Of a DNA stretch of 64,000 nucleotides, positions 4,243-51,625 are shown in pieces. The number at the start of each line of letters is the position of its first letter. Position 1 is the stretch's first letter. Origin of the DNA: Brachyspira pilosicoli (lineage in GTDB: Bacteria > Spirochaetota > Brachyspiria > Brachyspirales > Brachyspiraceae). Where the stretch lies: contig NZ_SAXY01000055.1 of NCBI RefSeq assembly GCF_008016535.1, positions 1-64,000 of the forward strand, given 5' to 3'. The notes beneath the pieces are model-generated. The model saw only the letters and a program-made list of their open reading frames with translations, had not been told where the DNA came from and searched no databases. A program made the position numbers and the translations under genes.

Positions 4243-5205
4243 ATGGCTTTTTTTGATTTATCTATAGATGAACTTTATCAATATAAAGGAAGCTCCGAAG
4301 AACCAAGCGATTTTGACAGTTTTTGGCTTAACACTATAAAAGAAAATAATCATAAACCAGAGGCAAAATATAATTTAATACAAACACATTTAAAGTTTTT
4401 TGATGTGTTTGAAGTAAGTTTTTTAGGCTATAACAAGCATACTATAAACGGCTGGTACATAGCACCAAAAAATAGTGATAAATTAACTTGTGTAGTTCAA
4501 TATTTAGGATATGGAAATGGAAGAGATTTTCCTATTAGTCATATAGTTTTTCCATCTGCAGGCTATAGTGTATTTGTAATGGAAACTAGGGGGCAGGGTG
4601 CTGAAGATGGTAATGGTGCTTCAACAATTGACCCTGAAGGCTACGGAGTGCATGCAGACGGATTTCTTACAAAAGGAATATTAGACAAAAACGATTATTA
4701 TTATAAAAGAGTTTTTATAGATGCTCTAAAGGCAATAGAAGCTGCTAAAGAACATCCATCAACAGATAAAATTGTTATAAACGGTTCTAGTCAAGGAGGA
4801 GGAATTGTCTTAGCTGCATGTGCTTTAAGTGAGCTTTCAAACATAAAAATAGATGCTATGATAGCTGATGTGCCTTTTTTGTGTGATTATAAAAGGGCTT
4901 CCACTATTACAGATACTTTGCCTTATAATGAAATAGTGAGATACTGCAAAACAAATAGAGATAAAGAAAATATAGTTTTTAATACGCTTTCATATTTTGA
5001 CGGAGCATTTTTTGCTAAGAGGGCTAAAGCAAAAGCATTATTTTCTGTTGGGCTTATGGATATATTAGTGCCTCCTTCAACAGTGTTTGCTGCCTATAAT
5101 AATTATGCAGGAGAGAAGTCTATTGAAGTTTATACTTTTAACGGACACGAGGGCGGAGATAATTATCATATAGAAAAGAAGTTGGATTTTTTAAGCAGAT
5201 TATAA
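4243..5205 (+). CDS. Acetyl xylan esterase / cephalosporin-C deacetylase family (CE7)
   Basis: This alpha/beta hydrolase of the AXE1 family removes O-acetyl groups from small sugars and xylo-oligosaccharides. The 320-residue length is typical. The nucleophile is S183 in the GSSQGGG elbow, the acid D273 in GLMDILVPPS, and the base H302 in NGHEGG. The family motif METRGQG lies near residue 115 and GYGNGR near 90. No signal peptide is present, as in most CE7 enzymes. With the GH35 enzyme and EIIA it suggests intracellular trimming of acetylated galactosides or oligosaccharides. Confidence 0.9.
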   Translation: MAFFDLSIDELYQYKGSSEEPSDFDSFWLNTIKENNHKPEAKYNLIQTHLKFFDVFEVSFLGYNKHTINGWYIAPKNSDKLTCVVQYLGYGNGRDFPISHIVFPSAGYSVFVMETRGQGAEDGNGASTIDPEGYGVHADGFLTKGILDKNDYYYKRVFIDALKAIEAAKEHPSTDKIVINGSSQGGGIVLAACALSELSNIKIDAMIADVPFLCDYKRASTITDTLPYNEIVRYCKTNRDKENIVFNTLSYFDGAFFAKRAKAKALFSVGLMDILVPPSTVFAAYNNYAGEKSIEVYTFNGHEGGDNYHIEKKLDFLSRL

Positions 5206-5249
5206 TATTTTTAAAGTATACTAAAATAAATATTTTTGGTAAATTATTT

Positions 5250-5565
5250 TATTGTTCTTTTCCCAGCCTTCGCTATGCGGACTTTGTCAAAGTTTTACCC
5301 TTCGCCTACGCTTCGCGAAAGTGCAAATATTTAAGTTTTATATAGTATATAAAATAATATAATATATTCTTTGTTATACTTCATAAAAATGCAGTTCTTT
5401 TGGTTCTTTTATACCAATAAAAGAACTGGGGGTGCGGGGGCTAGTCCCCGCAAATAATTTAAAAAAACTAATTTTTAATAAACTTTAAAATTTTCAATGT
5501 ATATTGAAACAATAATTTTTTATCAACTTTTTCCCGTAGCAAAAAGTTGCAAAAAGTACAAGTAA
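5250..5565 (+). repeat. Mosaic intergenic repeat, region A (beta, alpha, beta modules)
   Basis: This fills the gap between two convergent genes (5206-5669). A GC-rich beta block with ACTTTGTCAAAG at 5280-5291 and CTTCGCGAAAGTGCAAAT at about 5310-5328 is followed by an AT linker. An alpha block begins ATGCAGTTCTTTTGGTTC at 5389, contains the hairpin AGTTCTTTTATTGG-type arms and ends GGGGGCTAGTCCCCGC. A second linker leads to CAACTTTTTCCCG at 5524. The same order recurs in other gaps of the window on either strand. The alpha block can be read as a 22-codon ORF, but other copies contain stops or frame changes, so I treat it as repeat. Confidence 0.8.
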
Positions 5566-5669
5566 AAAATGATAGTAAACCATAATAATTTATATATAAT
5601 ATAAATTATTAATTAGTATAATGGTATTTAACAAAATACTTAAAAATCTTTAATACATAATAAAATTGC

Positions 5670-7661
5670 TCAAGAATCTGGCTTCAATGTTGCTTTGAGG
5701 TTTGAGAAAAACTCTTCTTCGTCCATTGCCATATCTTCTGGAAGACCTTTTCTCATCTCTTCCAAAAATATTGACGGAGTGCATTCCACATCTCTTCCCT
5801 GCTTTTTTCTTTTCATACAGTATGTTAATGTGAGGTGCTTTTTTGCCCTTGTCATAGCTACATAGCAAAGTCTTCTCTCTTCTTCTATCTCTCTGTCCGA
5901 TGAACTTTTATGATGCGGAAGTATGCCGTCTTCCATGCCGCATATATAAACATAAGGAAACTCCAACCCCTTTGCAGCATGTATACTCATAAGCATTACA
6001 CCTTTCTTTTTCTCTTCTTCATTATTTTCTTCTATGCTCATTAAAAGTATTCTGTCTAAATAATTTTTTAGAGTTGCATTTTTATTTCCTTTCTCATATT
6101 CTGCTATACCATTCATTAGAGATTCAATGTTTTCTATTTTTTTGCTTCCCTGCTCTTTTGTATCGCTTGAGTTTAATACTTCATTATGATATGCGATTGT
6201 ATCTAAAAACTTATTAATATTTTCGTAAAGTTTAGGTTTTTCTAATGTGTTTTTATCAACTGTAAAGACTTCATTATAATGATGAATAATATCCAAAAAA
6301 TCTTTTATGCCTGTTTTTGCCTTTGGAGGTATATCATCTATATTCTCATAGTCGAGTAATGTTTGATATAATGACACTCCATTTTTTATGCTTATTTCAT
6401 TTAGATTATTAATTGCAACTGCCCCTATTCCTCTTTTTGGTATATTAATAACTCTCAAAAGAGAAACTTCATCTTCTGGATTAACGAATAAGTTTAAATA
6501 TGCAAGTATATCTTTAATTTCTTTTCTTTCATAAAATTGAAAAGCACCAACAACAGTATATGGAATACCTCTAAATCTCAAAGCCTCTTCAAAAATACGC
6601 GACTGAGAGTTCATTCTAAACAGTATAGCAAAGTTTTCGTAGTTTAAATTTTTGCTTATTGCAGTTTGTGTAATATTTTCTGCTATAAACTGTGCCTCAT
6701 CTCTCTCATCTTCGCAAGGCATAATAACAGGAGGTATACCCTCATCATTAACAGCAACAACCTCTTTTGCCTTTCTTTGTGTATTGTTGCTTATTACAGC
6801 ATGAGCCGCTTCAAGTATAGCTTTAGTGCTTCTGTAATTTTTGTTTAATGTAATTATTTTAGCTTCTGGATATTCGTTTTCAAAAGAAAGTATATTTGAT
6901 ACATCAGCTCCTCTAAAAGCATATATACTCTGGTCATCATCGCCTACAACGACTATGTTTTTATATTTTGAAGCTAAAAGACTTGTGAGCTTATATTGTG
7001 CTAAATTAGTATCCTGATATTCATCAACCATAATATATTTAAATCTCTCTTGATATTTGTCTAAAACATCAGGAAAATGAATATATAAATCAATAGTTAA
7101 ATCAATAAGGTCATTAAAATCAACAGCATTATACCCTTTCAAATAATTCTGATAAACCTCATAAACTCTTTTAGCAATCTTCTCCAAATCATCATGAGGC
7201 ACTACTTCATTTGGCTTTATTAAATTGTTTTTGTATCTGTCTATATACCAAGCAAAAAGATTTTCATCATAATTAAGAGTATTTACTTTAACTTCTCTCA
7301 AAATATTTCTTATAAGAGTTCTGCTGTCTGAAGAAGAATATATACTAAAGTTTTTTTTGTATCCAAGCTTATCTATATCTAATTTAAGCACCCTCACACA
7401 AAAAGAATGAAAAGTGCTGATTACCAATTGTTTAGGTTTTTCTTTAAGCAAACTAGCTATTCTCTCACGCATTTCATTTGCTGCTTTATTTGTAAAAGTA
7501 ACAGCAAGTATATTACTAGGATCTACTCCGTTTTTTATTAAATAGGCAATTCTCTCTGTAATTACTCTAGTCTTACCGCTTCCTGCACCAGCTAATGCAA
7601 GCATAGGACCGTTAATATGCTCTACAGCTTTTTTTTGCTCTTCATTTAACATTAATGCCAT
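5670..7661 (-). CDS. uvrD: UvrD/Rep/PcrA-type superfamily 1 DNA helicase
   Basis: This ATP-driven 3'-5' DNA helicase acts in excision repair, mismatch repair and clearing of stalled forks. All SF1A motifs are visible in order: Walker A GAGSGKT at residues 25-31, motif Ia TFTNKAANEMRER, motif II VDEYQDTN, motif III GDDDQSIYAFRGAD, motif IV NYRS, motif V SIHAAKGLEFPYVY and motif VI YVAMTRAKKHL. At 663 residues it lacks the longer tail of many UvrD/PcrA proteins and is closer to Rep in size, so the exact orthologue is uncertain. It stands alone, with mosaic repeats on both sides. Confidence 0.93.
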   Translation of the reverse strand: MALMLNEEQKKAVEHINGPMLALAGAGSGKTRVITERIAYLIKNGVDPSNILAVTFTNKAANEMRERIASLLKEKPKQLVISTFHSFCVRVLKLDIDKLGYKKNFSIYSSSDSRTLIRNILREVKVNTLNYDENLFAWYIDRYKNNLIKPNEVVPHDDLEKIAKRVYEVYQNYLKGYNAVDFNDLIDLTIDLYIHFPDVLDKYQERFKYIMVDEYQDTNLAQYKLTSLLASKYKNIVVVGDDDQSIYAFRGADVSNILSFENEYPEAKIITLNKNYRSTKAILEAAHAVISNNTQRKAKEVVAVNDEGIPPVIMPCEDERDEAQFIAENITQTAISKNLNYENFAILFRMNSQSRIFEEALRFRGIPYTVVGAFQFYERKEIKDILAYLNLFVNPEDEVSLLRVINIPKRGIGAVAINNLNEISIKNGVSLYQTLLDYENIDDIPPKAKTGIKDFLDIIHHYNEVFTVDKNTLEKPKLYENINKFLDTIAYHNEVLNSSDTKEQGSKKIENIESLMNGIAEYEKGNKNATLKNYLDRILLMSIEENNEEEKKKGVMLMSIHAAKGLEFPYVYICGMEDGILPHHKSSSDREIEEERRLCYVAMTRAKKHLTLTYCMKRKKQGRDVECTPSIFLEEMRKGLPEDMAMDEEEFFSNLKATLKPDS

Positions 7662-7734
7662 AAAAAATAAAAAACCCTTTATTTATATAAGTTGGAAATT
7701 TATTATATATTATAACGAAATATATACAAGCATA

Positions 7735-8032
7735 GGGGTTGGGGCAAAGCCCAGCAAATAATAAAAATAAAAAAAGTTAAAAATTTCAGTATATTCTGAA
7801 ATAAGTATATTTTGTTATATGATTTTTTATTCAACTTTTTCCCGCCTTCGCGGTGCGGACTTCGTCAAAGTTGCAAAAAGTGCAAACATCTTAACTCTAT
7901 ATGTTGGAATATGTATTAGTATAAAATAATAAATTTATTTTAATCTGAAAAAATGCAGTTCTTTTGCTTCTTTTATATCAATAAAATAACTGGGGTGCGG
8001 GGCAAAGCCACCACAAATAATAAAATTTAATA
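7735..8032 (+). repeat. Mosaic intergenic repeat, region B (alpha tail, beta, alpha)
   Basis: This occupies most of the 392-bp gap between the helicase start and the thioesterase stop. The order is an alpha tail (GGGGCAAAGCCCAGC near 7741), a linker carrying TTTCAGTATATTCTGAAA, a beta block from CAACTTTTTCCCGCC (7835) through GGACTTCGTCAAAGTTGC, a second linker, and a complete alpha block from ATGCAGTTCTTTTGCTTC (7954) to GGGGCAAAGCC. It is the plus-strand counterpart of the inverted arrangement at 25.1-25.4 and 44.5-44.8 kb. I see no other gene in this gap. Confidence 0.8.
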
Positions 8033-8053
8033 AATTTAAATCAATAAATTCAA

Positions 8054-8566
8054 TTATGGTATTGCTATAGTTTGAGGGTCTGTTTCTTTTTTCTCCACAT
8101 ACCAATCTTCTTCATTGTTTGGGTCCATTTCCGCTATTTGCTCTAAACTCATGCATATATAATTGCCTTTTGCTGTTACTGCTATTGTGTCATCATTAAG
8201 AAGTATATACCCTTCTCCTTCATACATTCTGCCATTGCCGTAAGTAATTTTTCCAATTATTCTAATTTCTTCATTGATAGGTACAGGCTTTTTATATTTT
8301 GTTGTAAGCGTTGTTGTAACTCCCCATTTATCTTCACCTGTATAAGGCATCATTGCTCTTCCTATAGTTTCATCTAAAATAGCAGCAAGTATACCGCCAT
8401 GCACTCTTCCGGGGTATCCTTGATGATAATCTTTAAAAGTTACCAAAGCACAAAGTGATTTATCTTCAAGTTCAAAAAACTCCGCTTTCAAACTTAAATC
8501 ATTTTTAAATCCGCATACTAAACACATTCTTGAATTGTTCTGTTTATTTAATACTTTTAATTCCAT
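8054..8566 (-). CDS. PaaI/4HBT hotdog-fold thioesterase
   Basis: It is predicted to hydrolyse acyl-CoA or related thioesters in the cytoplasm. The 170-residue protein has the hotdog signature RVHGGILAAILDET, with HGG at 56-58 and D65/E66. The strand YKKPVPINEEIRIIGKI follows, as in PaaI/4HBT enzymes. The N-terminus carries CLVCG, a Cys pair seen in a subgroup of these proteins. An AAGGAC ribosome site precedes the ATG. It is probably monocistronic, and its acyl substrate cannot be inferred from the neighbours. Confidence 0.85.
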   Translation of the reverse strand: MELKVLNKQNNSRMCLVCGFKNDLSLKAEFFELEDKSLCALVTFKDYHQGYPGRVHGGILAAILDETIGRAMMPYTGEDKWGVTTTLTTKYKKPVPINEEIRIIGKITYGNGRMYEGEGYILLNDDTIAVTAKGNYICMSLEQIAEMDPNNEEDWYVEKKETDPQTIAIP

Positions 8567-22164: not shown

Positions 22165-22680
22165 ATGAAAAAAATATTAAATGTTATTTTTATTATATCA
22201 ATATTTTCAAGCTTGTTATTAGCACAAAATAATAATAATTCAGCAGATACTAATACAGCAAATGATATGACAATGTATAATCCTTATATGCAAACACCAG
22301 ATAGTAATGTTCAATATGGATATGGTGTGCCATTATCATCTTTGCCTCAAAACACTCAAGATTTTATAGCAAAGCATTTTCAAAATGTGGAAGTAACTTA
22401 CATAGAGAGAGATTGGGAGGAAATAGAGGTATATTTAGCTAATGGAACACAAATTGAATTTTTCCCTAATGGAGAATGGAAAGAGGTAAAAACTTATGGA
22501 AATATGCCTACTACAATATTGCCTGCTAATGTTTTAGCCACTGTTAATAAAACTTATCCTCAGGCTGCAATTATAAAAATAGAAAAACAATTCACTATAT
22601 ATGAAGTTAAACTCAATAATATGATGGAGCTTTATATTGATAATAATGGTAATTTATTAGGACAGCAATTTGATGATTGA
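22165..22680 (+). CDS. Secreted two-domain PepSY-like protein
   Basis: A 171-residue protein with a signal peptide (residues 1-20, cleavage after LLLA), an Asn-rich linker and two PepSY-like domains of the PF11396 type. Domain one starts VPLSSLPQNTQDFIAKHF and domain two LPANVLATVNKTYPQAAI. Each has the pattern of conserved Pro, a helix, then strands (YEVKLNNMMELYIDNNGNLL). It is the first gene after a consensus promoter, and three single-domain paralogues follow. Members of the family are periplasmic and of unknown or inhibitory role; nothing here fixes the function. Confidence 0.8.
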   Translation: MKKILNVIFIISIFSSLLLAQNNNNSADTNTANDMTMYNPYMQTPDSNVQYGYGVPLSSLPQNTQDFIAKHFQNVEVTYIERDWEEIEVYLANGTQIEFFPNGEWKEVKTYGNMPTTILPANVLATVNKTYPQAAIIKIEKQFTIYEVKLNNMMELYIDNNGNLLGQQFDD

Positions 22681-22716
22681 TAATTAAATAAAAAAATAAA
22701 ATTAAAGGAGTAAATA

Positions 22717-22968
22717 ATGAAAAAAATAATATGTTTATTAATAGCTTTGAGTATAATAGGTTCTTCAGCTTTATTTGCTGATTGGTATATACCTCTTAAT
22801 CAAGTTCCTCAAGCAGTATTAGCTACAGCAAGAGCAACTTATCCTCAAGCACAGATTTGGGCTGTAGAAATGGAGTATTATAATGTTTATAAAGTAAAAA
22901 TGAACAACATGATGGAACTTTATATAGATAAAGATGGTAATTTATTAGGTCAAGAGTTTGACGACTAA
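22717..22968 (+). CDS. Secreted single-domain PepSY-like protein, tandem copy 1
   Basis: An 83-residue product with a signal peptide to about residue 21 (SALFA) and one PepSY-like domain (VPQAVLATARATYPQAQ then VYKVKMNNMMELYIDKDGN). It is the most diverged of the three tandem copies: it has QIWAVEMEYYNVYK, and LLGQEFDD at the C-terminus as in the two-domain protein. GGAG lies 7 bp before the ATG. This copy is probably the ancestor of the other two. Confidence 0.82.
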   Translation: MKKIICLLIALSIIGSSALFADWYIPLNQVPQAVLATARATYPQAQIWAVEMEYYNVYKVKMNNMMELYIDKDGNLLGQEFDD

Positions 22969-23000
22969 TATTAAAATATAAAAAATAAAGGAGTGAAATA

Positions 23001-23252
23001 ATGAAAAAAATAATATGTTTATTAATAGCTTTAAGTATAATAGGTTCTTCAGCTTTATTTGCCGATTGGTATGTACCTCTTAATCAAGTTCCTCAGGCCG
23101 TATTAGCAACAGCAAGAGCAACTTATCCTCAAGCAGAAATTTGGGCAGTAGAAATGGAAAATTATTATGTTTATAAAGTAAAAATGAATAATATGATGGA
23201 ACTTTATATTGACAAAGCAGGTAATTTGTTGTATCAGGAGTTTGACGACTAA
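23001..23252 (+). CDS. Secreted single-domain PepSY-like protein, tandem copy 2
   Basis: An 83-residue secreted protein differing from copy 1 mainly in EIWAVEMENYYVYK and in the tail LLYQEFDD. Signal peptide and domain boundaries are the same. The gene lies 32 bp after copy 1 with an identical spacer carrying AAAGGAG. Function unknown, as for its paralogues. Confidence 0.82.
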   Translation: MKKIICLLIALSIIGSSALFADWYVPLNQVPQAVLATARATYPQAEIWAVEMENYYVYKVKMNNMMELYIDKAGNLLYQEFDD

Positions 23253-23284
23253 TATTAAAATATAAAAAATAAAGGAGTGAAATA

Positions 23285-23536
23285 ATGAAAAAAATAATAT
23301 GTTTATTAATAGCTTTAAGTGTAATAGGTTCTTCAGCTTTATTTGCCGATTGGTATGTACCTCTTAATCAAGTTCCTCAGGCAGTATTAGCAACAGCAAG
23401 AGCAACTTATCCTCAAGCAGAAATTTGGGCAGTAGAAATGGAAAATTATTATGTTTATAAAGTAAAAATGAATAATATGATGGAACTTTATATTGACAAA
23501 GCAGGTAATTTGTTGTATCAGGAATTTGATGACTAA
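23285..23536 (+). CDS. Secreted single-domain PepSY-like protein, tandem copy 3
   Basis: An 83-residue product that differs from copy 2 by a single residue in the signal peptide (Ile to Val at about residue 14). The near identity shows a very recent duplication or gene conversion. It is the last gene of the cluster, and a strong terminator follows at 23580. Confidence 0.82.
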   Translation: MKKIICLLIALSVIGSSALFADWYVPLNQVPQAVLATARATYPQAEIWAVEMENYYVYKVKMNNMMELYIDKAGNLLYQEFDD

Positions 23537-23579
23537 TAAAAAAGACAATTGATAAAAAAATAGTTATTCCTTATTATTG

Positions 23580-23622
23580 TAGAAGAGGCTTAAAAATATT
23601 TTTAGGTCTCTTCTTTTATTTG
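23580..23622 (+). terminator. Terminator of the PepSY cluster
   Basis: TAGAAGAG (from 23580) pairs with CTCTTCTT around a long A/T-paired inner stem (TTAAAAAT/ATTTTTAG). The transcript then runs into TTTTATTTG. It lies 44 bp after the last stop. Confidence 0.8.
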
Positions 23623-25106: not shown

Positions 25107-25124
25107 TAAAAAACTTAAAAATTT

Positions 25125-25425
25125 TTAAGTTTCTCAATTTTGTTTTTAAATTTTATTGTTTGCGGGGACTAGCCCCCGCACCCCCACTTCTTTTGCGACC
25201 GAAGGAAGTGCCGGCGACTGAAAGAAGTACCTTTAGGTAAGGCGTGACCCAAAGAAGCAAAAAGACTGCATTTTTTAACCTGAAATACAAGTATTATTTT
25301 ATACTAATACATATTCTTAAGACATTATCGATAGTACTTGCGTTTTTTGCAACTTTTTGACGAAGTCCGCACCGCGAGAGCGACAAAAAAGTTGATAAAA
25401 AATTATTATTTCAAGCCACTACGGG
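25125..25425 (-). repeat. Mosaic intergenic repeat, region C (inverted alpha-beta)
   Basis: This fills the space between convergent genes, almost up to the DUF3810 stop. In minus orientation, alpha begins ATGCAGTCTTTTTGC near 25273. Its central hairpin is replaced by GC-rich blocks (GCGACCGAAGGAAGTGCC at 25195-25212, then GCGACTGAAAGAAGTACC), and it ends in GGGGGCTAGTCCCCGC (25162-25178). Linker and beta (TTTGACGAAGTCCGCACCGC, about 25355-25375) follow. The GCGACC block is the one that also occurs inside two transposase genes. Confidence 0.82.
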
Positions 25426-44489: not shown

Positions 44490-44778
44490 TAAAATGTTTG
44501 CACTTTCACGAAGCGTACCCAAAGGGTAAAAACTTTGACGAAGTCCTCACTGCGACTGAAAGGAGTCCTTCAGGGCGACCGAAGGAAGTGCCTGCGAAGG
44601 CAGGAAAAGTTGAATAAAAAAATCATATAACAAAATATACTTATTCCAGAATATACTAAAAATTTTTAACTTTTTTTATTTTTATTATTTGCAGGGCTTT
44701 GCCCTTAACGAAGTAAACACCGTGCAGCACCCCAGTTCTTTTATTGGTATAAAAGAACTAAAAGAACTGCATTTTATT
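44490..44778 (-). repeat. Mosaic intergenic repeat, region D1 (inverted beta-linker-alpha)
   Basis: Part of a 760-bp gap without genes. Beta (44490-44620) is enriched in GC-rich blocks: ACGAAGCGTACCC, CTTTGACGAAGTC, GCGACTGAAAGGAGTCC and GCGACCGAAGGAAGTGCCTG (44575-44594). A linker with TTCCAGAATATACT leads to alpha in minus orientation (44690-44775), with a full hairpin AGTTCTTTTATTGGTATAAAAGAACT. The 20-bp GCGACC block is identical to the insertion inside the transposase copies. Confidence 0.85.
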
Positions 44779-45035
44779 ATAAATTTTATAATTTAATTGT
44801 ATATTAAAAGGTATTCCCCCGCACGTATAAGAAGTTATAATTAAAACATGGTATTACCGTGCGGCAAGGTGGTACAGCTCGTACGCGGGAAAAAGTTGAA
44901 TAAAAAATTTATTATATATTTGAAAACTTTTAAGTTCATCAATTTTTGTTTTTAAATTTTATTATATTCGGGGGCTAGCCCCCGCACCCCTACTTCTTTT
45001 ATTGGTATAGCAAAAGAACTGCAATTTCAATAAAA
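44779..45035 (+). repeat. Mosaic intergenic repeat, region D2 (gamma and alpha modules)
   Basis: A gamma block (about 44779-44912) is nearly identical to 51499-51625. It contains CCGCACG (44819-44825) facing CGTGCGG (44858-44864), then GTACAGCTCGTACGCGGG and AAAAAGTTGAATAAAA. A second alpha tail follows at 44969-45030 in minus orientation (GGGGGCTAGCCCCCGC). From 45036 to 45185 the sequence is AT-rich and I see nothing in it. Confidence 0.8.
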
Positions 45036-48134: not shown

Positions 48135-48225
48135 AGTTAAAATATTTGCACTTTTTGGTTCTTTTGACGAAGTCCGCAAAGCGAAGGCGTTAAAAAGAAC
48201 AACAAAAAATTTGATATAAAACTAT
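48135..48225 (-). repeat. Mosaic intergenic repeat, region E (beta only)
   Basis: A short beta copy in minus orientation between the esterase stop and the IS left end. TTTGCACTTTTTGG, GACGAAGTCCGC and GCGAAGGCG are recognisable, but no alpha or gamma remains. The rest of 48060-48233 is AT-rich. Confidence 0.7.
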
Positions 48226-48233
48226 TATTTTAA

Positions 48234-49136
48234 TGTCATGGAGCCATAGATATTGTACTTTTACTTGCTATAATATTTTTGATTCTTTCTTTGATTGTAA
48301 TATACAATAACGAAGAAATCAATCTTTGATTGTTATAAAAATGTGTATATTCTTTTAATTTTTCTCTTAATAATTCTACTTGATATTTTTATTTAATCGT
48401 GAATAAAATTCTCTTTCGTCTATGCCGTGTACTCTTTCTACTACACCATTGTATCTTGGTGTTGCTACTGGAATATATCTTCTCTCTAATTTATTTTTTA
48501 AGCAGTATTCATCAAAAATATTTATTTTAGGAGTATTAATACAGCGATAAGTATATTCTATACCATTGTCTGTTTGTATAGCTTGTATCCTAAAAGGTGA
48601 AGTTTTCAATACATATTTTAAGAAAGATAAAGCACTATAAGGTGTTTTATCCTCATAGATCTGCCTCCAACTATAACGAGCAGATAAATCTACAGCTGTG
48701 AATTGATAAACTGTTTTTCTGCCTAATTTGATATATTTAGTGTCTATTTGAACTATTTTGCCCTCTTTTTGTATTTTAGAGACAAATTTTCGTTTATCAT
48801 ATCGCTTCTTTTTCTTTTTTATTTTGTATCTCCAAAGATTATTTCTTTTTAGTACATTCTCTATCGCTGTAACACCTATCTTAATGCCTTTACGATTTAA
48901 ATATGCTTTAATATAATGCTTACCTCGATATTCTTTAGTATAGAGTTCAATAATTAAATTAATAGCTTTTTGATTATTAAAGATATTTGGAGAAGTTTTT
49001 GGTTTAGTGCTAAAATTAGCGACAGTTCCAGTGTCTTTATATTTCTTAAGCCAAGTATAAAAAGTGGATTTATTTATTCTTTCCATCTTTAGAAATCTTT
49101 TAATATTTTTAGTTTTTAATGCTTTATACACTATAA
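48234..49136 (-). mobile_element. IS481/IS3-like element, copy 3 (5'-truncated)
   Basis: The left terminus TGTCATGGAGCC is present at 48234. The right part, including about 20 transposase codons and the right inverted repeat, is replaced at 49136/49137 by the left end of copy 2. The remnant of right-end sequence is not found beyond copy 2, so this is not a simple insertion into copy 3. Confidence 0.85.
48236..49131 (-). pseudogene. DDE transposase, copy 3: truncated and frameshifted, catalytic Asp intact
   Basis: The reading frame opens at a chance ATG (49131) within the truncated start and keeps the catalytic motifs QIDTKYI, IQTDNGIEYT and RYNGVVER. It stops after RLNKNIK at 48376. Two extra bases in an A-run (five where copy 1 has three) shift the frame. 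The other frame resumes YQVELLREKLKEYTHFYNNQ and ends SKSTISMAP at 48236 inside the terminal repeat. Alone among the three, this copy lacks the 24-bp insertion. Confidence 0.85.
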
Positions 49137-50152
49137 TGTCATGGAGCCATAGATATTGTACTTTTACTTGCTATAATATTTTTGATTCTTTCTTTGATTG
49201 TAATATACAATAACGAAGAAATCAATCTTTGATTGTTATAAAAATGTGTATTTTAATCGTGAATAAAATTCTCTTTCGTCTATGCCTTGTACTCTTTCTA
49301 CTACGCCATTGTATCTTGGTGTTGCTACAGGAATATATCTCCTCTCTAATTTATTTTTTAAGCAGTATTCATCAAAAATATTGATTTTAGAGGTATTGAT
49401 ACAGCGGTATGTATATTCCATACCATTGTTGCCACAGGCACTTCCTTCGGTCGCAGTTTGTATAGATTGTATCTTAAAAGGTGAAGTTTTTAAGACATAT
49501 TTTAAGAAAGATAAAGCACTATAAGGTGTTTTATCCTCATAGATTTCTCTCCAACTATAGCGAGTAGCTAAATCTACAGCTGTGAATTGATAAACTGTTT
49601 TTCTGCCTAATTTGATATATTTAGTGTCTATTTGAACTATTTTGCCTTCTTTTTGTATTTTAGAGACAAATTTTCGTTTATCATATCGCTTCTTTTTCTT
49701 TTTTGTTTTATATCTCCAAAGATTATTTCTTTTTAGTACATTCTCTATAGCTGTAACACCTATCTTAATGCCTTTACGATTTAAATATGCTTTAATATAA
49801 TGTTTTCCCCTATACTCTTCAGTATAGAGTTTAATAATTAAATTAATAGCTTCTTGATTATTAAAGATATTTGGAGAAGTTTTTGGCTTAGTACTAAAAT
49901 TAGCGACAGTTCCAGTGTCTTTATATTTCTTAAGCCAAGTATAAAAAGTGGATTTATTTATTCTTTCCATCTTTAAAAATCTTTTAATATTTTTAGTTTT
50001 TAATGCTTCATCCACTATAAATAATTTAAATTCTGTGCTATAATCTTTTTTCATAGTAGTATCCTTTTATTTGTTTTTTATATCAAAATATTATAACAAG
50101 GATACTGCTTTTTTTATACTAAAAAATGTCCAATATCTCATACTCCTAAACA
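49137..50152 (-). mobile_element. IS481/IS3-like element, copy 2 (both ends present)
   Basis: Both termini are present: TGTCATGGAG at 49137 and ...CTCCTAAACA at 50152. The flanks ACACTATAA (left) and ATACTATAA (right) differ by one base and could be a 9-bp target duplication. Internally about 43 bp are missing relative to copy 3, between short TTTAAT repeats, so the element is 1016 bp. It stands head to tail with copy 3. Confidence 0.85.
49236..50054 (-). pseudogene. DDE transposase, copy 2: catalytic Asp split by 24 bp, C-terminus lost
   Basis: The protein starts at 50054 (MKKDYSTEFKLFIVDEAL) with two HTH regions and the integrase core. The 24-bp insertion at 49430-49453 yields QTATEGSACGNNG instead of QTDNG. 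The 43-bp deletion near 49250 replaces the last roughly 50 residues with KYTFL. First Asp (QIDTKYI) and Glu (RYNGVVER) remain. It should be inactive. Confidence 0.85.
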
Positions 50153-50609: not shown

Positions 50610-51313
50610 CAGCACTATTTCAAGACAACCCGCTAATTTCAATAGTAATAACTTTAATAGCATATATCATAGCATACTATATTTATAATAAAACAAAACT
50701 TCCAATATTAACGCCTCTTGTAACAACTGTAATACTTGTAGGTTTATCTATTTATTTTATGGGGGTACCTTATAGTGTTTATAATGAAAGCGGGGGAAAA
50801 TTTATTAATGCATTAGTTGGGCCTGCTACTGTTGTGTTAGCTCTTCCAATATATAGAAACCTTCCAATATTAAAAGCGAATTTACTAGTAATACTTTTAA
50901 GCATTGCAATAGGAAGTGCCATTGGAATAGTTGGAATATATTTCACTGCAAAAATTATGGGCGTATCAAAAAATATACTTTTATCACTTCTTCCAAAATC
51001 AATAACTACGGCAATAGCTGTTGATGTGGCAGATAGTATTGGTGCTGTAAAATCTATCACTGTGCTTGCTGTTATAGTGTCTGGGGTTGTGGGTGCTATA
51101 ATTGCCCCTATAGTTTGTAAAATATTTAGAATAAAATCGCCTTTAGCTATAGGTATTGCAATAGGTACTGCATCGCATGCTGTTGGCACTAGTAAGGCTA
51201 TAGAAATGGGAGAGACTGAAGGAGCTATGTCTGGTCTTGCTATAGGTATAGCTGGAGCTTTAACGGTTGTATTGCTTCTTATACTATATAAATTGCTTGT
51301 TACTATATGGTAA
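50606..51313 (+). CDS. lrgB: LrgB/CidB-family membrane protein
   Basis: A 235-residue inner-membrane protein with about six to seven helices. The family segments GPATVVLALPIYRN, LLPKSITTAIAVDVADSIG and GTASHAVGTSKAIEMGE are clear. Translation is coupled to lrgA through an ATGA overlap, and AAAAAAGGAAAA lies just upstream. The usual LytSR regulator genes are not here. Confidence 0.94.
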   Translation: MTALFQDNPLISIVITLIAYIIAYYIYNKTKLPILTPLVTTVILVGLSIYFMGVPYSVYNESGGKFINALVGPATVVLALPIYRNLPILKANLLVILLSIAIGSAIGIVGIYFTAKIMGVSKNILLSLLPKSITTAIAVDVADSIGAVKSITVLAVIVSGVVGAIIAPIVCKIFRIKSPLAIGIAIGTASHAVGTSKAIEMGETEGAMSGLAIGIAGALTVVLLLILYKLLVTIW

Positions 51314-51334
51314 AAATTTTTAAGTTTGTTAAAA

Positions 51335-51625
51335 ATATTTTTTAAGTTTTTTATTTGTGGTGGCTTTGCCCTATGCGAAGCGTACCCGTAGTGGTACACG
51401 TCCCCACTTCTTTTGCGACCGAAGGAAGTGCCGGCGACTGAAAGGAGTACCTTTAGGTAAGGCGTGACACAAAGAAGAAAAAGGACTGAATTTTTATGAT
51501 AAATTTTATAATTTAATCGTATATTAAAAGGCAATCCCCCGCACGACTAAAAAGTTATAATTAAAGCATAGCATTACCGTGCGGAAAGGTGGTACAGCTC
51601 GTACGCGGGAAAAAGTTGAATAAAA
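51335..51625 (+). repeat. Mosaic intergenic repeat, region F (alpha plus gamma)
   Basis: This fills the 334-bp gap between convergent lrgB and folD. An inverted alpha carries inserted GC-rich blocks: GCGAAGCGTACCC, then GCGACCGAAGGAAGTGCC (51415-51432) and GCGACTGAAAGGAGTACC. The gamma block (51499-51625) repeats 44779-44905 almost base for base. The two D/F copies share more than 120 bp. Confidence 0.85.

Follow-up and report, generated by a model that had tools for sequence, protein, structure and literature searches.

The window, i.e., the whole stretch of DNA analyzed here, is 64 kb long and belongs to one contig of a 2.76-Mb draft Brachyspira genome. It contains three copies of one IS that encodes an integrase-like transposase (1-811, 48376-49137 and 49236-50054) and a dispersed repeat located in six gaps between genes, the limits of which are approximate, since the ORFs were called within the analysis. 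The first-pass annotation described the repeat at 5250-5565 and in at least six gaps on both strands, and this was borne out. A B unit (5247-5327), an A unit (5385-5457) and a second B unit (5517-5562) were found at the described position, and five further gaps are occupied: 7735-8020 (+), 25117-25401 (-), 44497-45027 (-), 48146-48207 (-) and 51312-51625 (-). Profiles of A ('alpha'), B ('beta') and 'gamma', a variant of B, gave 18 unit matches in the six gaps, including two weak ones and two left halves of B that overlap gammas. Full A units, with profile E-values from 1e-22 to 2e-11, are far above chance, and searches with two single-copy queries gave 70 and 77 matches genome-wide. The units and the remnants of their terminal inverted repeats (TIRs) are the following:

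5247-5327, + strand: B (beta) hairpin unit with module ACCCTTCGCCTACGCTTCGCG at the port-48 position (profile E 5.5e-14)
5385-5457, + strand: A (alpha) double-hairpin unit, loop 1 without module (profile E 1.2e-22; covariance model 96.8 bits)
5480-5496, - strand: 3' TIR remnant (weak TIR profile match, E 1.3, in the expected place and on the expected strand)
5517-5562, + strand: second B unit, loops without modules (profile E 4.2e-07)
7735-7760, + strand: truncated A unit, 3' end (profile E 0.026)
7779-7794, - strand: 3' TIR remnant (weak TIR profile match, E 0.54)
7825-7886, + strand: B unit (profile E 4.8e-21)
7949-8020, + strand: A unit (profile E 1.2e-16)
25117-25137, + strand: 3' TIR of the minus-strand element (weak TIR profile match, E 0.98)
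25156-25275, - strand: A unit, loop 1 carrying 48 nt of inserted sequence (two modules; profile E 1.3e-19)
25337-25401, - strand: B unit (profile E 8.2e-14)
44497-44619, - strand: B unit with modules in the loop (profile E 1.9e-11)
44651-44673, + strand: 3' TIR (TIR profile match, E 0.17)
44685-44775, - strand: A unit, loop 2 carrying a 20-nt module (profile E 9.5e-16)
44773-44895, - strand: gamma unit, a 123-bp variant joined to the left half of B (profile E 1.2e-37)
44962-45027, - strand: A unit (profile E 3e-14)
48146-48207, - strand: lone B unit (profile E 9.5e-16)
51312-51331, + strand: 3' TIR (weak TIR profile match, E 0.55)
51351-51495, - strand: A unit, both hairpin ports occupied by modules (profile E 2.1e-11)
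51493-51615, - strand: gamma unit (profile E 7.6e-39)

The family is thus represented by two GC-rich hairpin units, A and B, and the originally proposed order (beta, linker, alpha, linker) and period of about 280 bp are correct. The description of the repeat as far richer in GC than its surroundings holds for the hairpin cores (50-67% vs. 19.1% in intergenic DNA); the GC content of whole copies is 26-38% and that of coding DNA 29.1%. In 2.4 Mb of three genomes, adjacent units lie on the same strand in 132 cases and on opposite strands in 3, and A adjoins B in 115 of the 132 same-strand pairs, which indicates alternation. Chains mostly consist of 1-5 units, and A-only and B-only elements also exist. 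The window also contains an intergenic tandem array at 22600-23581 (period 284 bp, about four copies, 67-89% identity to reference copies), which is, as far as seen, unrelated to the A/B family.

One of the AT-rich 'linkers' is a 29-bp TIR, a feature missed at first and recognized from A units of other species read together with their flanks. The full element comprises the TIR TATATACTGAAAATTTTTAAGTTTGTCAA, the B hairpin, an AT-rich spacer, the A double hairpin and the inverted TIR. The ends follow the pattern TATATAC(T/C)(G/A/T)AAA...GTTTGTCAA. Matches to the TIR profile were located within 200 bp of a unit in 125 of 140 cases, while such DNA makes up 6.1% of the DNA scanned. Both ends are bounded by TIRs in 23 stretches of 242-608 bp, mostly 240-320 bp, 22 of which contain units (A, B+A, B or gamma). 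The TIRs are AT-rich and imperfect. Most copies have only one recognizable end, and what the window retains of the TIRs is weak, chiefly 3' remnants. Of the 82 TIRs lying 3' of a unit, 71 are oriented back toward it; the orientation of those 5' of a unit is less clear (43/74), probably because the end of the preceding unit falls there in chains. Tandem units abut via TATATA (...GTTTAGG-TATATA-CTAAAA...). TA or TATA adjoins the TIRs, and a clean target-site duplication was provable at none of eight near-empty sites.

In B. hampsonii and B. innocens, the A core is flanked on both sides by a different, unrelated TIR, TAGACTTGTTTCAAAA; the core can therefore occur with more than one TIR. The elements in these two species are 201-222 bp long:

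L130 4934-5155 and L142 3346-3546: A-core elements bounded by TAGACTTGTTTCAAAA

The same TIR bounds one site with an ABA chain in G007, one of the two comparison genomes. A further pair of these ends, located by the ends alone, lies in G007 at about 2,296,111-2,296,448 (338 bp).

The covariation check proposed in the first-pass annotation gave a positive result for the stems of A, B and the best-sampled module. The first stem of A occurs in two versions, CTTCTTT/AAAGAAG and GTTCTTT/AAAGAAC, with two-sided changes in its upper pairs; 96.2% of the cells are paired, and double-sided cells number 53 vs. 16 in shuffles, these counts not being independent events, because the copies share descent. 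Slid controls gave far lower values. Covariation was also found in the second hairpin of A and in the stem of B. The double changes mostly occur without wobble intermediates, and block exchange as well as stepwise compensation would fit them. Loop lengths vary by one nucleotide between copies, so no reading frame is kept.

Exchange of GC-rich sub-blocks at the same positions, as if from cassettes, was likewise confirmed: discrete GC-rich modules of about 20-25 nt occupy five fixed ports located within the hairpin loops of the A and B units or next to them, and the ports of both units carry similar module sequences. The modules at the ports fall into length classes of 20-26, 38-52 and 71-87 nt; this quantization, like the folding of the modules, had escaped notice. 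The best-sampled module covaries as a micro-hairpin with a 4-bp stem and a triloop. An RNA tetraloop of the UNCG/UUCG type was considered and rejected, since the covarying register is that of a triloop (TNC, or GNA on the other strand), and the loop sequence is therefore no proof of RNA. Triloops of the C(GNA)G type, read on either strand, seem to be enriched among triloop hairpins, which is only a hint, the copies being related and the control a mono-shuffle.

The repeat is not confined to the window, since more than 100 A units are present in several species. In four richer species, the covariance model counted 144 A copies among the matches listed for the window's genome, compared with 123 in G007, 146 among the matches listed in G015 and at least 149 in G035; G011, G015 and G035 each contain at least 140 copies. 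At the low end, G012 has six copies, and the incomplete genome G006 has two weak copies. No A units were detected by the model in two genomes that are 99% complete, G010 and G031. Among 149 genomes drawn from the phylum, no convincing match was found outside Brachyspira. Three matches elsewhere in the phylum have E-values from 5e-4 to 1e-3. Weak matches in other spirochaetes were rejected as relatives, being noise from the AT-rich linker. One copy of the repeat, searched against plasmid and phage records, gave no match. In this sample of genomes, the family is specific to Brachyspira.

Chains are intergenic in 176 of 177 cases, the lone exception overlapping only an antisense ORF, and units sit close to the 3' ends of genes. 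Chains occupy 26.3% of convergent gaps vs. 6.6% of the others (tandem, 6.7%; divergent, 6.5%; p 6e-19). Turnover was analyzed in G007 (a single 2.56-Mb contig) and G015, both closely related to the genome of the window, with orthologous blocks usually 87-95% identical to it. For 53 sites of the window's genome or G015, both flanks are collinear in G007; sites of the window's genome were picked via chain-bearing loci, which left occupancy in G007 free to vary. In G007, 46 of the 53 sites are occupied, 16 of these 46 in the opposite orientation and only 10 with the same string of units. Partners in the same orientation fall in the top 5% of similarity in 15 of 34 cases; those in the opposite orientation do so in 1 of 18 and are no more alike than random copies. 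Inversion of copies in place was rejected, since copies in opposite orientation at orthologous sites are unrelated to each other, and about a third of the occupied sites apparently hold an unrelated copy in the other orientation. The sites are thus stable and their contents replaced, since occupancy is kept while copies and orientations differ.

An association of the repeats with synteny breakpoints, suggested by a first sample (8/17 vs. 9/53), was also rejected, since it vanished in a larger one (10/37 vs. 22/79, p = 1). In the window, a gene for a UvrD-type helicase lies between two repeat-bearing gaps (5205-8054); in G007, the gene has the opposite orientation at the same place, and in G015, its neighbors are located elsewhere. 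A match to Rfam RF03531 (n00280) below the gathering threshold (50.6 vs. 65.2 bits) was found within this gene at 5810-5906 on the minus strand. In Rfam, this family is an sRNA inside a helicase gene, and the match probably reflects conservation of the coding sequence.

In the DNA checked, well-defined modules were clearly seen outside the A and B units only in four copies of the IS family present in the window, a link not made in the first-pass annotation. This family has about 100 copies and fragments in the draft genome of the window and almost none in related genomes. Four of the approximately 100 copies contain a 24-nt in-frame insert (8 codons) at the DNG motif of the catalytic Asp, changing D to ATEGSACGN. 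Two inserts coincide base for base with the A-loop module of G007, G015 and another species, and the other two differ from it by one base. Two of the inserts lie in the window:

187-210, + strand (gene on the - strand): 24-nt module in frame in the IS gene, identical to the A-loop module
49430-49453, + strand: 24-nt module in the corresponding position of another IS copy, with a single-base difference

The rve model matches an uninterrupted IS copy and not an interrupted one. The insert-bearing copies have 40-62 mutual differences and are mostly nearest to insert-free copies, which indicates that the insert spread by gene conversion or entered repeatedly. The strongly mosaic structure of the IS copies points to ectopic gene conversion. 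The ends of this abundant IS differ from the TIR of the repeat. Among the sequences checked, no in-frame modules were found in unrelated protein genes, this one IS gene family being the only carrier. The expanding IS family, by carrying a 24-nt module, thus offers a traceable event for testing module movement.

The first-pass reading of a dispersed mosaic family of exchangeable GC-rich cassettes stands; its view that the repeat is unlike any known class does not. No described family matched in Rfam (searched with the window) or in plasmid and phage collections (searched with one copy), and as far as tested, the repeat is neither a retron nor a degraded gene. The anatomy is that of a MITE: imperfect TIRs at both ends, a length of mostly 240-320 bp, no transposase gene and interspersed, intergenic copies in high number. 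The family is most probably a Brachyspira-specific, non-autonomous, MITE-like element with modules exchanged between copies. Copies would be moved in trans by a transposase recognizing the TIRs, perhaps lost in some lineages, and would insert at TA-rich targets; convergent gaps would be favored because insertion there is least harmful. Chains may grow by insertion or unequal exchange at the TA-rich sequence that joins adjacent TIRs. Hairpin modules would afterwards be exchanged between copies by ectopic gene conversion or template switching, only those changes being retained that still fold. The elements are considered to be selfish or tolerated and not regulatory. No pair of TIRs 700-2500 bp apart, as expected of an autonomous element, was found in the DNA scanned, which included 2.07 Mb of one 2.56-Mb genome, and transposases of the IS630 type (DDE_3) are absent from the genus except for one broken fragment.

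It is conceivable, though rather unlikely, that the family is instead a bacterial counterpart of the GC clusters of yeast mitochondria, i.e., palindromic GC-rich units that spread without a TIR transposase and nest in one another. Such units would spread, on the same rather unlikely assumption, via gene conversion, template switching or DNA repair, the TIR-like linker being merely co-copied. The shuffling and merger of GC-rich palindromes in an AT-rich genome match PMC4478555, the 24-nt module sits alone in an IS gene, one A core occurs with two different end sequences, and the transposase families tested (Y1 and DDE_3) give no candidate. The specificity of the TIR for the units and its geometry in the 23 bounded stretches argue against this explanation. 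Another rather unlikely proposal is that the smallest units to move are the hairpin modules of 20-25 nt as such, the MITE being only the place where most of them reside. Modules would then enter hairpin loops, and rarely genes, as discrete pieces through copying of a single 24-nt hairpin, for example by templated repair at the hairpin, a route that is equally doubtful.

A conserved functional cis-element maintained by selection at gene ends, such as a bidirectional terminator, an RNA 3' stabilizer or an attenuator, is improbable. The covarying stems, the proximity to 3' ends and the enrichment in convergent gaps agree with it, but orthologous sites change in content and orientation, and two nearly complete Brachyspira genomes have no elements. 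Terminator signals are lacking except on the minus strand of A (38% vs. 21% in shuffles), and genes with and without neighboring elements have their own terminators at an equal rate (matched search room, stricter T-run); terminator function is thus supported neither by the units nor by the neighboring genes.

BIMEs consist of palindromic, intergenic, GC-rich units that are clustered and alternate. The repeat has all of these properties, but its mobilization as REP/BIME by a RAYT (Y1) transposase is very improbable, because a Y1_Tnp protein was found in none of 26 Brachyspira genomes with the Pfam model, the controls of which worked. Remnants of a retron, a group II intron or a degraded gene family are just as hard to credit: reverse transcriptase occurs in a few genomes, but it is absent from G015, G011 and G035, each with at least 140 copies, and present in the copy-free G031, no Rfam match lies over the units, and the one-nucleotide differences in loop length keep no frame.

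Curated Rfam models gave no match to the units in the window, and the parts of Brachyspira genome papers reached by keyword search for repeat terms do not mention the repeat. No Brachyspira MITE or palindromic repeat was found in the open-license literature. Rearrangements linked to mobile elements and a multi-copy integrase are reported in PMC3532143. The repeat could supply typing markers for gut spirochaetes.

Prokaryotic MITEs, including Correia, ERIC, CIR, BrickBuilt and QMITE, have been reviewed (PMC10969869). Similar to the Brachyspira repeat, MITEs are short, bounded by TIRs, non-coding, intergenic and present in many copies, with truncated copies retaining only the palindromic core. 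The Brachyspira element is set apart from known MITEs by its modular core, which has five ports and several hairpin modules that can be exchanged; it also differs in that the same core occurs with two TIRs and no parent IS was found in the Brachyspira DNA scanned. REP/BIME sequences share the extragenic palindromes and alternating arrays, but the Brachyspira repeat has TIRs and occurs in a genus without RAYT. Rickettsia palindromic elements (PMC10969869), like the Brachyspira module, are palindromes able to sit in frame in genes, whereas the module is carried by one IS family only, its other copies being seen in intergenic DNA. The GC clusters of yeast mitochondria (PMC4478555) are likewise GC-rich palindromes of an AT-rich genome, constrained in structure and subject to merging and shuffling; in contrast, the Brachyspira units are located on a bacterial chromosome, within a larger TIR element and in a fixed alternating order. 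The family accordingly represents a short mobile repeat of bacteria, comparable to these clusters, that evolves by exchange of hairpin modules while its fold is kept.
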